Positions 23,272 through 29,747 of a stretch of 64,000 nucleotides of DNA are shown one piece after another (position 1 is the first letter of the stretch; each line of letters opens with the position of its first letter). Origin of the DNA: an uncultured Lachnospiraceae bacterium. Its GTDB lineage: Bacteria; Bacillota; Clostridia; Lachnospirales; Lachnospiraceae. Both the position numbers and the translations under genes were made by a program. Location: assembly GCA_902788555.1 (NCBI GenBank), contig CADAKQ010000007.1, forward strand, positions 30,803 through 94,802, written 5' to 3'. The notes under the pieces were generated by a model. The model was given only the letters and a program-made list of their open reading frames with translations, did no database searches and had not been told where the DNA came from.

Positions 23272-24150
23272 TTGAGTAAAAAGAAAAGGACTACTGCCAT
23301 CATTTTACTCATCATAATCGAGCTTTTACTTGCAGCCGGAATTGCATTTACAAACGGGGCGGCGGAAAAGCACGAAACGATTAAGGAAATGATGAGAGAT
23401 GCGGTGCTCCACGAGGAAAACAAGATAAGTCTTTTCGGACTTTCGGTTAATCCTTCGCTTATAGCAGGATATACCGTGACCGGAATCATACTTATCTTTG
23501 CACTGATTGTGAGGATATTTGTTATACCGAGATTCAAAAATGTGCCGGGTAAATTTCAATTGGTATTGGAAACCTGGGTTGGATTTTTTGATAATCTGGC
23601 AAAGACAAACAGTCCGCACAGCAACGGATTTTTGGGAGCATATATATTTGCAACGGGAACCTATGTATTTACGGGTACTTGCTTTGAACTGTTCGGAATT
23701 CAGGCAATAACTACCGAGGGACATTCCATTTCACTTCCGGCACCTCTTGCCGATATAAACGGAGCGATTATGATGGGATGCTTATCATATCTTATTATAA
23801 TGTCCGGCGGTATTATGAATAACAAGCTAAGAGGCGTGGGACTTACATTGAAGGAATTTTCACTTCCTCTATCTATGAGCTTCCGTCTTTTCGGAGCGCT
23901 CCTTTCGGGTATGCTTGTTACAGAGCTTATATACTTTACCTTGGGACTTTCGATATTGCTTCCGGTAGTGGTAGGCGTGGTTTTCACATTACTGCATGCA
24001 CTTATACAGGCATACGTGCTTACACTGCTTACGGCGATATTCTACGGAGAGGTTTCAGAACCGCCGAAGCCTAAGGAAAAGAAGCAAAAGAAAGATAAGA
24101 ATAAGAATAAAAATGATGCCGAGCCGGATGTGAAGGTTCAGGAAGCATAA
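23272..24150 (+). CDS. atpB: ATP synthase Fo subunit a
   Basis: 292 residues, five to six membrane helices. It forms the stator half-channels for the coupling ion. The essential Arg lies in the helix LPLSMSFRLFGALLSGML, followed by HALIQAYVLTLLTAIF. The Lys-rich tail (PKEKKQKKDKNKNKND) is longer than usual. The start is TTG with AAAGGAG 8-9 bp upstream; no in-frame ATG fits. It is the first gene of the operon, with no atpI before it. Confidence 0.95.
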   Translation: MSKKKRTTAIILLIIIELLLAAGIAFTNGAAEKHETIKEMMRDAVLHEENKISLFGLSVNPSLIAGYTVTGIILIFALIVRIFVIPRFKNVPGKFQLVLETWVGFFDNLAKTNSPHSNGFLGAYIFATGTYVFTGTCFELFGIQAITTEGHSISLPAPLADINGAIMMGCLSYLIIMSGGIMNNKLRGVGLTLKEFSLPLSMSFRLFGALLSGMLVTELIYFTLGLSILLPVVVGVVFTLLHALIQAYVLTLLTAIFYGEVSEPPKPKEKKQKKDKNKNKNDAEPDVKVQEA

Positions 24151-24201
24151 TAAAGAAGATAAATCGATTAAATATGATTATTAATCCAATAAAAAAGATA
24201 A

Positions 24202-24684
<483 letters not shown>

Positions 24685-24702
24685 CAAAGCGAGGTGTCTA
24701 AT

Positions 24703-25209
24703 ATGGTACTAACAGGATTACCGCTTAATATTGATTTTCAACAGATATTACTTCATCTTGCTAACTTTGCCATACTTTTCTTTGGTTTATATATTCTTCT
24801 TTATAAACCTGTTAAAGATTTTATGGATAAAAGACAGGCACATTATAAGAGTCTTGATGATGAGGCAAATGACAAGCTTGCCGGTGCAAAGGAAAAAGAA
24901 GAAGAATATCAAAATAAACTTAACAGTGTTGATGAAGAAATAGATAAAAAGAAGAAGGAAGCTGCGGCAGAGCTTGATACCATGCGTGTTGAAAAAGAAA
25001 AGGAAGCTAAGGAAAAGGCAGATAAGATTGTCGAGGATGCACGTAAGGAAGCAGAGAGTGTCCGTGCCAATATCATCAACAGTGCAAGTAAAGATATAAC
25101 TGATATGGTAAGTCAGGCGGCTGAAAAGATATTTATGAGTGATGACATAGAAAAGGCTTATGATGTTTTCTTGGAGGATGCTGAAAGGAGCGTAAAGGAT
25201 GGAGAATAA
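24703..25209 (+). CDS. atpF: ATP synthase Fo subunit b
   Basis: 168 residues with one N-terminal membrane helix (LLHLANFAILFFGLYILLYKPVKDFMDKR) and a long charged coiled coil, the peripheral stalk. ATG 24703 has GAGGTG 6 bp upstream; an in-frame GTG at 24694 overlaps that site. Its end overlaps the atpA frame by 11 bp. There is only one b-type gene and no atpH after it, unlike the usual B-E-F-H-A-G-D-C order. Confidence 0.93.
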   Translation: MVLTGLPLNIDFQQILLHLANFAILFFGLYILLYKPVKDFMDKRQAHYKSLDDEANDKLAGAKEKEEEYQNKLNSVDEEIDKKKKEAAAELDTMRVEKEKEAKEKADKIVEDARKEAESVRANIINSASKDITDMVSQAAEKIFMSDDIEKAYDVFLEDAERSVKDGE

Positions 25210-26983
25210 AATGCCCGAAAAGCGTAATGCATATCTCTATGCCAAGGCAGCACCCACACAGGAACAAAAGGCAAGATTTGAGAGCTTTCTTAAGCAGAAA
25301 TATAATGAGGATATAAGCCTGGAATGGGTAGAAGATAATGAAATAAGAGGCTTTAAACTCATTTATGATACGGAAATATTTAACTGGACTCCGGAGGGAA
25401 GATTTGCTCAGTTTAAGGATAAGTTAGATGAAATTTCCATGAGATATGCCAGCAAGTCACAGCCTGATCAGATGATTACCCTGCTTAAAAAGTCCATTGA
25501 AGACTTTGAACTTGAAGCGGTTGCCGAGGAAGAGGGTAAGGTCAAAACCGTAGGTGACGGTATCGTCGTTGTGGAAGGCCTTGATTCGGTTAGGTATGGC
25601 GAGATAGTAGTCTTTGAATCCGGTGTAAAGGGTATGGTTCAGGATTTAAGACGTGGTGAGATAGGTGTCATTCTCTTTGGTGAGGATGATGAGATAACAG
25701 ACGGAAGTCTGGTAAGAAGAACTAAAAAGACTGCCGGTATTGCCGTTGGTGAAGGCTTTGTAGGCAGAGTTGTAGATGCACTTGGAAACCCGATTGACAA
25801 TAAGGGGGACATAGCAGCATCTGATTATCGTGCTTTGGAGACACCGGCGCCAAGTATAATTGACAGACAGCCGGTAAATGAACCGATGGATACCGGACTT
25901 TTATCCATTGATTCCATGTTCCCTATAGGACGAGGACAAAGAGAGTTAATTATAGGTGACAGACAGACGGGAAAAACTACGGTTGCCCTTGATACAATAC
26001 TTAATCAAAAGGGTAATGGCGTTATATGTATATATGTTGCGATAGGACAAAAGGCGAGCAGTGTTGCACAGCTTGTCGGAACATTAAATAAGCATGATGC
26101 TATGAGCTATACAATAGTCGTAAATGCATCTGCTTCCGACACGGCTCCGCTTCAGTATATAGCTCCTTATGCGGGTACCGCTTTGGGAGAATATTTTATG
26201 GAGCAGGGCAAGGATGTGCTTATTGTATATGATGATTTATCAAAGCATGCGATAGCCTATAGAGCCTTAAGTCTTTTGCTTGAGCGTTCTCCGGGACGTG
26301 AGGCATATCCTGGAGATGTATTTTATCTTCATTCAAGACTTTTGGAGCGTTCTGCACATCTTTCTGCTGAAAAAGGCGGCGGTTCACTTACTGCGCTTCC
26401 TATAGTAGAAACTCAGGCAGGAGATGTTTCGGCATATATTCCGACCAATATTATATCCATAACTGATGGTCAGATATTCCTTGAGAGCGAGCTTTTCTTC
26501 TCGGGACAAAGACCTGCGGTAAATGTCGGACTTTCCGTATCCCGTGTAGGCGGAGCCGCACAGACCAAGGCTATGAAAAAAGCTGCCGGCGGTGTAAGAC
26601 TCGACCTTGCACAGTACAGAGAGATGGAGGTTTTTACCCAGTTTTCAAGTGACTTGGATGATGCGACCAAAAGACAACTGGTTTACGGTCAGGGACTTAT
26701 GAGACTTTTAAGACAGCCGCAGAGTCATCCGATGAAGCTGCATGAGCAGGTTATAACTCTTGTTTCGGCTACTGCTCATGTTATGCAGGATATACCGCTT
26801 GAGAGCATGCTGGATTTTAGAAATAAGCTTTTTGATTATTTCCATGCAAATGCCATGACACTTTGTAATACCATAGACGATACAGGTCTGTTATCCGATG
26901 ACGATAAGCAGACTATTATAGATGAGGCAAAGAAGTTCTGTGACGAATACCTTGAGGGTATGGTAAATGAGGACGGTGAGTAG
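25199..26983 (+). CDS. atpA: ATP synthase F1 alpha subunit fused to a delta C-terminal-like domain
   Basis: 594 residues against about 505 usual. Residues ~87-594 are a complete alpha subunit: PDQMITLLKKSIEDFE, Walker A GDRQTGKT (253-260), VYDDLSKHA and the Arg finger in SVSRVGGAAQ. Residues ~8-80 fit the C-terminal domain of subunit delta/OSCP: a first strand into PTQEQKARFESFLKQKY, then EDISLEWVEDNEIRGFKLIYDT, matching the delta pattern of beta strand, helix, v-L-x-x-x-vD-x-x-l-x-GG, then a terminal helix. No separate atpH exists in the operon. ATG 25199 has AAAGGAG 9 bp upstream; ATG 25211 is an alternative, and both keep the extra domain. Confidence 0.92.
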   Translation: MENKMPEKRNAYLYAKAAPTQEQKARFESFLKQKYNEDISLEWVEDNEIRGFKLIYDTEIFNWTPEGRFAQFKDKLDEISMRYASKSQPDQMITLLKKSIEDFELEAVAEEEGKVKTVGDGIVVVEGLDSVRYGEIVVFESGVKGMVQDLRRGEIGVILFGEDDEITDGSLVRRTKKTAGIAVGEGFVGRVVDALGNPIDNKGDIAASDYRALETPAPSIIDRQPVNEPMDTGLLSIDSMFPIGRGQRELIIGDRQTGKTTVALDTILNQKGNGVICIYVAIGQKASSVAQLVGTLNKHDAMSYTIVVNASASDTAPLQYIAPYAGTALGEYFMEQGKDVLIVYDDLSKHAIAYRALSLLLERSPGREAYPGDVFYLHSRLLERSAHLSAEKGGGSLTALPIVETQAGDVSAYIPTNIISITDGQIFLESELFFSGQRPAVNVGLSVSRVGGAAQTKAMKKAAGGVRLDLAQYREMEVFTQFSSDLDDATKRQLVYGQGLMRLLRQPQSHPMKLHEQVITLVSATAHVMQDIPLESMLDFRNKLFDYFHANAMTLCNTIDDTGLLSDDDKQTIIDEAKKFCDEYLEGMVNEDGE

Positions 26984-26985
26984 GG

Positions 26986-29300
<2,315 letters not shown>

Positions 29301-29333
29301 TTGTTAAAAAGGCTGTAAAGAGGTGATGTTTTA

Positions 29334-29747
29334 GTGGAACATACATTTAAAGCAAGAATATATGAGGCAGACAGTCCGTTTTTTGAAGGGGAGCTTACTT
29401 CGGTAGTTGTACCTGCGATAGACGGAGAGTATGGTGTATTGGCTAACCACAGAAATGTCGTTATAGCTATAGTTCCGGGAAATATGCACTTTACTTTGCC
29501 GGATGGCACAGTAGAATATGTTATCGTTTCCGAGGGTATGATGAGGGTTGAAAATAACGATGTATTAATCCTCATTAATCATGCCGAAAGACCGGATGAG
29601 GTAGAGGCAAACCGTGCCAGGGAAAAGGAAGAGGAGCTTATCGAAGCAAAACTTCAAAAGAAAAGTGTAGAAGAATATCTCGAGGCTGAGCTTATGATGC
29701 AAAGAGCCATGGCGGGACTAAGAGATAAGGGACGTAAGATGGATTGA
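29334..29747 (+). CDS. atpC: ATP synthase F1 epsilon subunit
   Basis: 137 residues: N-terminal beta sandwich (EGELTSVVVPAIDGEYGVLANH) and C-terminal helical hairpin. It starts with GTG after AGAGGTGATG. It ends the atp operon; I see no clear terminator in the 55 bp before the next gene, so read-through is possible. Confidence 0.93.
   Translation: MEHTFKARIYEADSPFFEGELTSVVVPAIDGEYGVLANHRNVVIAIVPGNMHFTLPDGTVEYVIVSEGMMRVENNDVLILINHAERPDEVEANRAREKEEELIEAKLQKKSVEEYLEAELMMQRAMAGLRDKGRKMD

Follow-up and report, generated by a model that had tools for sequence, protein, structure and literature searches.

A delta C-terminal domain joined to the ATP synthase alpha subunit in Lachnospiraceae and other Clostridia: candidate F1Fo enzymes with more than one peripheral stalk

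The window, a 64,000-nucleotide stretch of DNA from an uncultured Lachnospiraceae bacterium, carries an F-type ATPase operon whose alpha subunit begins with the b-docking C-terminal domain (CTD) of subunit delta, the delta N-terminal domain (NTD) having been lost. The sequences of this operon and its relatives show three b docks per F1, absence of the NTD, intact catalytic residues and, among relatives, independence of any free delta. We consider it fairly likely that the product is a proton-coupled F1Fo that uses its three docks to hold more than one stalk of b2 and a, and thereby acts as a low gear.

The operon occupies positions 23272-29747 of the window on the forward strand, with seven genes in the order atpB-E-F-A-G-D-C, as the initial annotation had read it. 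atpB (23272-24150) encodes a subunit a of 292 residues, against 244 in the other subunit a of the same genome, and contains the essential Arg, which was kept in 72 of 72 aligned rows from CTD-only fusions and in 21 of 21 from fusions with the entire delta. The subunit c encoded by atpE (24217-24684) has 155 residues, its two-helix core with the ion-site Glu being preceded by 81 extra residues (24217-24459) that comprise a hydrophobic, signal-like start and then an acidic tail; long c subunits are typical of most of the main CTD-only clade, and short ones were seen in the full-length fusions. atpF (24694-25209) encodes a subunit b of 171 residues whose C-terminus is alike across the fused operons displayed; of its two solved relatives at E<=0.1, the b of a two-stalk Chloroflexus enzyme is the closer (E 3.7e-10). 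This gene overlaps atpA (25199-26983), so that there is no space for an atpH between them. The remaining genes are atpG for gamma (26986-27915), atpD for beta (27912-29300) and atpC for an epsilon of 137 residues (29334-29747), the C-terminal part of which is weakly matched by Pfam. Subunits a, c, b, alpha, gamma, beta and epsilon of an F-type enzyme are thus all encoded in one operon, and the Walker A motif of alpha, the Arg of a and the Glu of c are all present; a delta/OSCP protein with NTD and CTD is not, the CTD alone occurring within alpha. N-ATPases (TIGR03324, TIGR03305) presumably also lack a separate delta, with a different gene order; that assignment was rejected, the window alpha scoring 605.1 bits against a cut-off of 750.5 and the beta 589 against 752.

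The fused atpA is an uninterrupted frame of 594 residues that combines the delta CTD with a complete alpha, and the N-terminal extension of 85 residues claimed for it was borne out: the match to the alpha model TIGR00962 begins at residue 88, and the alpha core, aligned by blast with the genome's other alpha, begins at residue 85. Within the extension, residues 9-83 (25223-25447) form the delta CTD, the dock of b, and are followed at residues 89-102 (25463-25504) by the alpha N-terminal helix that binds delta in ordinary enzymes. The HMM search proposed for residues 1-86 gave a divided answer. Pfam found no OSCP match at E<=1 in these residues or in the whole window protein, and the assignment needs the family alignment because Pfam misses the window extension on its own; profiles built from family alignments matched the delta CTD without ambiguity. 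A 12-row profile of the extension picked up the CTD of free deltas from three congeners (best E 2.4e-7), along with stop-free frames of free-delta size elsewhere in the family (to E 2e-17). When 62 extensions were compared with 11 free deltas using hhalign, window residues 7-83 aligned with delta 105-179, which is the CTD (probability 96.7%, E 3.9e-10), and a profile search of the PDB gave as its best match the CTD of E. coli delta (residues 111-176, E 1e-6) and also retrieved an engineered fusion, 9jc1 (E 1.7e-5). A home-built delta-CTD model aligned with the extension of every complete fused alpha scanned, at 0.7 to 28 bits, the matches in L008, L035, L059, L066, L081 and L086 being non-significant alone (E 0.14 or worse); on alphas of free-delta operons it gave negative scores or none. 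The NTD model matched the extension only in a class of 671-684 residues (4 to 15 bits) and not in the CTD-only class, in agreement with the proposal that the NTD has been dispensed with. The operon therefore presents a CTD on the alpha N-terminus with neither NTD nor atpH, the arrangement of a delta(deltaN)-alpha fusion.

Predicted structures agree with the profile comparisons. The AF2 model of the extension reached a pLDDT of 79-94 by blocks over residues 11-80, and the first 39 Foldseek rows obtained with it were all ATP synthase entries, the two at E<=0.001 both being delta chains, which supports a structural match to the delta CTD. The fold was of the delta CTD type, as the initial annotation had suggested, with the predicted order strand-helix-strand-strand-strand-helix, one strand more than it had counted, followed by the alpha helix. 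The model of the whole protein (mean pLDDT 75, with lower confidence at 407-453) matched best the three alpha chains of the engineered PS3 fusion, which took the first three places among the PDB matches and aligned over 572 columns, the other PDB rows listed spanning 469-507. The extension is, judging from codon comparisons, under purifying selection: among five sequences its dN/dS was 0.07-0.22 in six of ten pairs, the other four being saturated, and that of the alpha core was 0.03-0.06. The ribosome-binding site of atpA, AAAGGAG (25184-25190), lies 8 bases 5' of the ATG and was identical, at the same distance, in nine sequences displayed. Given this selection and the conserved AAAGGAG, a translation start near residue 86, which had been raised as an outcome that would undo the fusion, is not expected.

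The claim that atpH is missing holds for the operon and fails for the genome. A separate full-length atpH, a result that the initial annotation had counted against its own reading, turned up on contig C4 in a second complete F-ATPase operon (locus L002, 7492-14701), with a 179-residue atpH, a 500-residue alpha and a c subunit that carries the Na+ signature described below; an atpI-like gene, a putative label given from its position, is also present there. Across the genus, a fused alpha was found in 17 of 37 genomes, 13 of them CTD-only by frame (589-605 codons) and four full-length (680-683), and all 17 also carry a free delta of about 180 residues. Relatives with a fused alpha in which no free delta was found nevertheless show that an atpH of the C4 type is dispensable for the fused enzyme.

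These relatives came from a survey of atpA length of the kind that had been proposed. A complete fused frame is present in at least 74 of the 397 family genomes surveyed, a count based on a match list down to E about 1e-8 with classes assigned by frame length; the alpha identity of the frames was confirmed in all 11 + 21 fused genomes checked. PF00213 was then searched in 74 genomes, namely 72 of the at least 74 fused ones and two contig-edge cases (by frame length 40 CTD-only, 26 full, six neither and two contig-edge fragments), the window's own genome and G026 being covered by the genus-level free-delta scan instead. No free delta was found by this search in 14 of the 40 CTD-only genomes, nine of the 14 being at least 95% complete; G135, which has two delta fragments at contig ends, was left out of the 14. 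Each of these nine, as well as Acutalibacter sp. 1XD8-36 and Ca. Paralachnospira caecorum, has one alpha at E<=1e-60, and it is fused. The Acutalibacter record is not marked as MAG, and neither is that of Lachnospiraceae bacterium AC2029, which has a CTD-only fusion and also a free delta. Similarly, in 12 of 12 further Clostridia genomes (four single contigs; two less than 90% complete, at 72 and 86%) the sole delta match and the sole alpha lie in one frame, and in other Clostridia PF00213 matched over the CTD part inside the alpha frame with E-values to 7.6e-20. In one of the 12, G608, the PF00213 match at 29-170 runs across a stop codon. The NTD model had no match in or before alpha in G608 and four like cases, and in these five cases examined the weak upstream PF00213 matches through stop codons are readings that enter atpF. 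The CTD-only genomes without a free delta argue that the NTD is not needed, and the fused enzyme seems to be the only F-ATPase of many genomes, with no need of a delta from elsewhere; a delta from elsewhere as obligatory partner was accordingly rejected.

Fusions that retain more of delta were also found. Four congeners carry the entire delta, NTD and CTD, ahead of alpha, with PF00213 (OSCP) E-values of 8e-23 and 3e-19 in the two scanned, and full-length delta-alpha fusions occur in Pseudobutyrivibrio ruminis DSM 9787 (L097, 4710-6725) and Agathobacter ruminis (L102, 881-2902), each beside a free-delta gene; the c subunit of both is without the Na+ signature. At L099 (4839-6824) the extension has 140 residues, a size between the CTD-only and full-length classes, and is not matched by the NTD model.

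To place these forms, an alpha-core tree of 108 rows was built by the 'quick' method with SH-aLRT support only, near-copies and L112 being left out. All 94 fused rows formed one clade (support 100), separate from the 14 free-delta rows, and divided into a clade of 59 that is entirely CTD-only (97) and a clade of 35 (89) with 22 full-length rows, 12 CTD-only rows and L099; three CTD-only rows share a clade of support 97 with 20 full-length rows. In a second tree of 79 rows, to which further Clostridia were added, ten CTD-only rows lay with 17 free-delta rows across a branch of support 100. These are loci of other Clostridia families whose CTD-only fusions group with free-delta alphas: L126, L128, L129, L132, L134, L139, L142, L144, L147 and L148. 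In three of the ten, the free-delta CTD model scored 57-59 bits and PF00213 matched over 100-172 only (E 7.6e-20 to 3.4e-19). Starred branches of the 79-row tree, a 'quick' tree with no root inferred and a sample biased towards fusions, force at least four changes of the CTD-only label. With CTD-only rows spread in this way over both trees, the CTD-only state seems to have had more than one origin, and the ten loci apparently represent separate origins. A single clade of CTD-only fusions is contradicted by both trees and was dropped.

Two further designs that would multiply docks were each seen in one genome. In G128 (96% complete), a single frame of 778 residues (L175, 1156-3492, contig C33) combines b, the delta CTD and all of alpha, with PF00430 (b) matching residues 9-137 (E 9.4e-18) and PF00213 residues 131-249 (E 1.2e-6); the operon reads a-c-[b-CTD-alpha]-gamma-beta-epsilon, and no separate b gene is present in the 11 kb around it. 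If this fusion is real, every alpha would bear its own b. In G710 (97% complete), a free delta of 261 residues (L179, 1271-2056, contig C84) combines one NTD with a tandem pair of CTDs (E 2e-21 and 8e-19) whose sequences have clearly diverged, beside an ordinary alpha of 503 residues; this delta would offer one axis-binding domain and two b docks.

The fused enzymes also differ from the free-delta enzymes at the ion site of c. We take the Na+ signature, from Ilyobacter, to be a Gln in helix 1 and a Thr/Ser pair after the Glu in helix 2; the window c has Met at the Gln position and T-V, not T-T, after the Glu. The Gln was present in 13 of 14 free-delta operons and, among rows with a readable residue, in none of 73 CTD-only and none of 22 full-length ones (counts that include near-copies, the free-delta count excluding L112, which has a broken alpha frame, and repeats of the window genome's own operon), and inspection by eye of 12 further fused operons gave no Na+ signature. 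From these residues we infer that the fused enzyme is a proton enzyme; the C4 enzyme, with its free delta and Na+ signature, would serve a sodium circuit. An Ech-driven proton circuit as partner was rejected for the genus: PF00346 (Complex1_49kDa), which would show Ech, was found in none of its 37 genomes, and the control set gave matches in 11 of 14.

The window architecture has an engineered counterpart. Ueno et al. (2025; PMC12229609) fused delta residues 105-178 to alpha in Bacillus PS3. In their account, every ATP synthase then known has one a, with c-ring size setting H+/ATP, and the delta NTD on the axis restricts stalks to one. The fusion raised a 2.2-fold and b 1.8-fold on gels and gave an H+/ATP of 5.8 versus 3.0, and cryo-EM found 0, 1, 2 and 3 stalks in 15, 51, 26 and 8% of particles, the maximum being three stalks with three a-subunits (PMC12229609). 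The idea that the CTD is tied to alpha, giving three b-docking domains per F1, fits the evidence, and such a design has been built and solved by cryo-EM; the stoichiometry puzzle noted in the initial annotation has an answer in principle (PMC12229609). Like the PS3 fusion (9jc1), the window operon has the delta CTD on the alpha N-terminus, the NTD deleted and no separate delta; unlike it, the window fusion is natural, its epsilon is present at 137 residues whereas the epsilon C-terminal domain was removed from PS3, and its c has the signal-like N-terminus. As natural cases, the Discussion of PMC12229609 names Acidaminococcus fermentans and two UniProt entries; the A. fermentans operon, as reported there, resembles that of the window in being a natural delta-alpha fusion without NTD. 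Acidaminococcus was absent among the 80 of 108 relatives kept in the contig scan. We take A. fermentans to belong to another class of Bacillota than the window bacterium. The mycobacterial b-delta fusion (e.g. PDB 7jg5), which the initial annotation had drawn as a parallel, likewise joins delta to another stator subunit, but there delta is on b (445 residues), whereas the window fusion has the CTD on alpha and lacks the NTD. Chain counts reveal a natural enzyme with two stalks: in PDB entries for Chloroflexus aurantiacus (9itj series), each F1 comes with 3 alpha, 1 gamma, 2 delta, 4 b and 2 a. Its delta is a separate chain of 157 residues, unlike that of the window, and the comparison uses the PDB chain counts, our literature search having returned no paper on the Chloroflexus ATP synthase. 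Beside PMC12229609, searches of titles and abstract starts, with most subscription journals out of reach, returned no other reports of natural fusions or multi-stalk enzymes and no experiments on any natural fusion.

Taken together, these data lead us to favor a mechanism in which each alpha permanently bears the b-docking delta CTD and the NTD, whose place on the threefold axis restricts the ordinary enzyme to a single stalk, has been lost. Because F1 contains three alphas, the sequence provides three equivalent docks per F1. By analogy with the engineered homologue, two or more b2 stalks, each bringing an a of its own, would assemble round one c-ring; as each a would pass one proton per c step, H+/ATP would grow with the number of a-subunits. 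Such a low gear could allow ATP synthesis when the proton-motive force does not suffice for the ordinary enzyme and, run in reverse, would export more protons per ATP. For the window enzyme itself, we infer a stoichiometry of more than one stalk. The PS3 precedent, the Chloroflexus chain counts and the other dock-multiplying designs support assembly of several stalks, the b-CTD-alpha and tandem-CTD proteins raising its odds slightly. Against it count the 51% of PS3 particles with a single stalk, as a dock need not be filled, the full-length C4 delta available in trans, and the window operon itself, which like an ordinary one has a single b and a single a gene; against a low gear counts the lack of PF00346 in the genus.

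The main competing explanation, which we regard as possible and distinctly less probable, is that b, a or the c-ring is limiting, so that only one b2 and one a bind despite three CTDs, the fusion serving to save a gene and to firm the alpha-delta joint. In cryo-EM of the engineered enzyme, about half of the particles showed just one stalk (PMC12229609), and in the full-length fusions three NTDs would compete for the axis, so that idle copies would have to be tolerated. A firmer joint alone, however, does not explain why CTD-only forms occur to either side of a branch with strong support as well as inside the full-fusion clade; moreover, the engineered enzyme averaged two a by gel and by H+/ATP (PMC12229609), and the G128 arrangement would not leave two alphas without b. 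A hybrid in which the C4 operon lends its full-length delta, and with it an NTD, to the fused enzyme to make one ordinary stalk is improbable: such a delta accompanies the fusion in all 17 fused genomes of the genus, but in Acutalibacter sp. 1XD8-36 and Ca. Paralachnospira caecorum, for example, the single alpha belongs to a CTD-only enzyme of the same clade and a free delta was not found. A mixture in which an internal start or cleavage yields some plain alpha, leaving one CTD-bearing alpha per F1, is very doubtful; Met occurs at residues 81 and 92 and a gap at 83-89 separates the final helix of the CTD from the alpha helix, but no ribosome-binding site was seen by eye before either Met, and the aligned near relatives have Leu, Ala or Gly in place of Met81. 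An unrelated domain or an assembly error as the source of the extension, for which the failed Pfam scan of the extension alone might speak, is scarcely credible and was rejected in view of the profile and fold matches and of the same fusion in many genomes, some of them single-contig or in records not marked as MAG.

The delta(deltaN)-alpha kind of fusion is already in print (PMC12229609, 2025). New, as far as the literature was searched, are how widely it occurs in Lachnospiraceae and other Clostridia, its full-length intermediates and its repeated appearance; the fused-only genomes, the c subunits without Na+ signature and the coexistence with a sodium-type enzyme; and the two further designs, b-CTD-alpha and the delta with tandem CTDs. 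On balance we lean narrowly towards a broader reading, in which Clostridia have repeatedly evolved multi-stalk, multi-channel F1Fo enzymes by several routes and many gut bacteria run a proton gear. In one route the whole delta would have been joined to alpha, after which several lines would have lost the symmetry-breaking NTD, with a CTD-only fusion on a separate branch; in others, b itself would have been fused in one genome, and a free delta would have gained two CTDs in another. Each route would free F1 for two or three stalks and a-subunits, and the proton gear would be the only F-ATPase in some gut bacteria and stand beside a single-stalk sodium enzyme in others. The engineered PS3 fusion showed that the one-a rule can be broken, and the same architecture is widespread in Clostridia, with intermediates, recurrence on separate branches, records from cultured strains and genomes in which no other F-type alpha was found. 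ATP synthases with more than one proton channel may thus be at work in nature, a question that is now directly testable in natural enzymes and that matters for how rumen and gut fermenters balance their energy.
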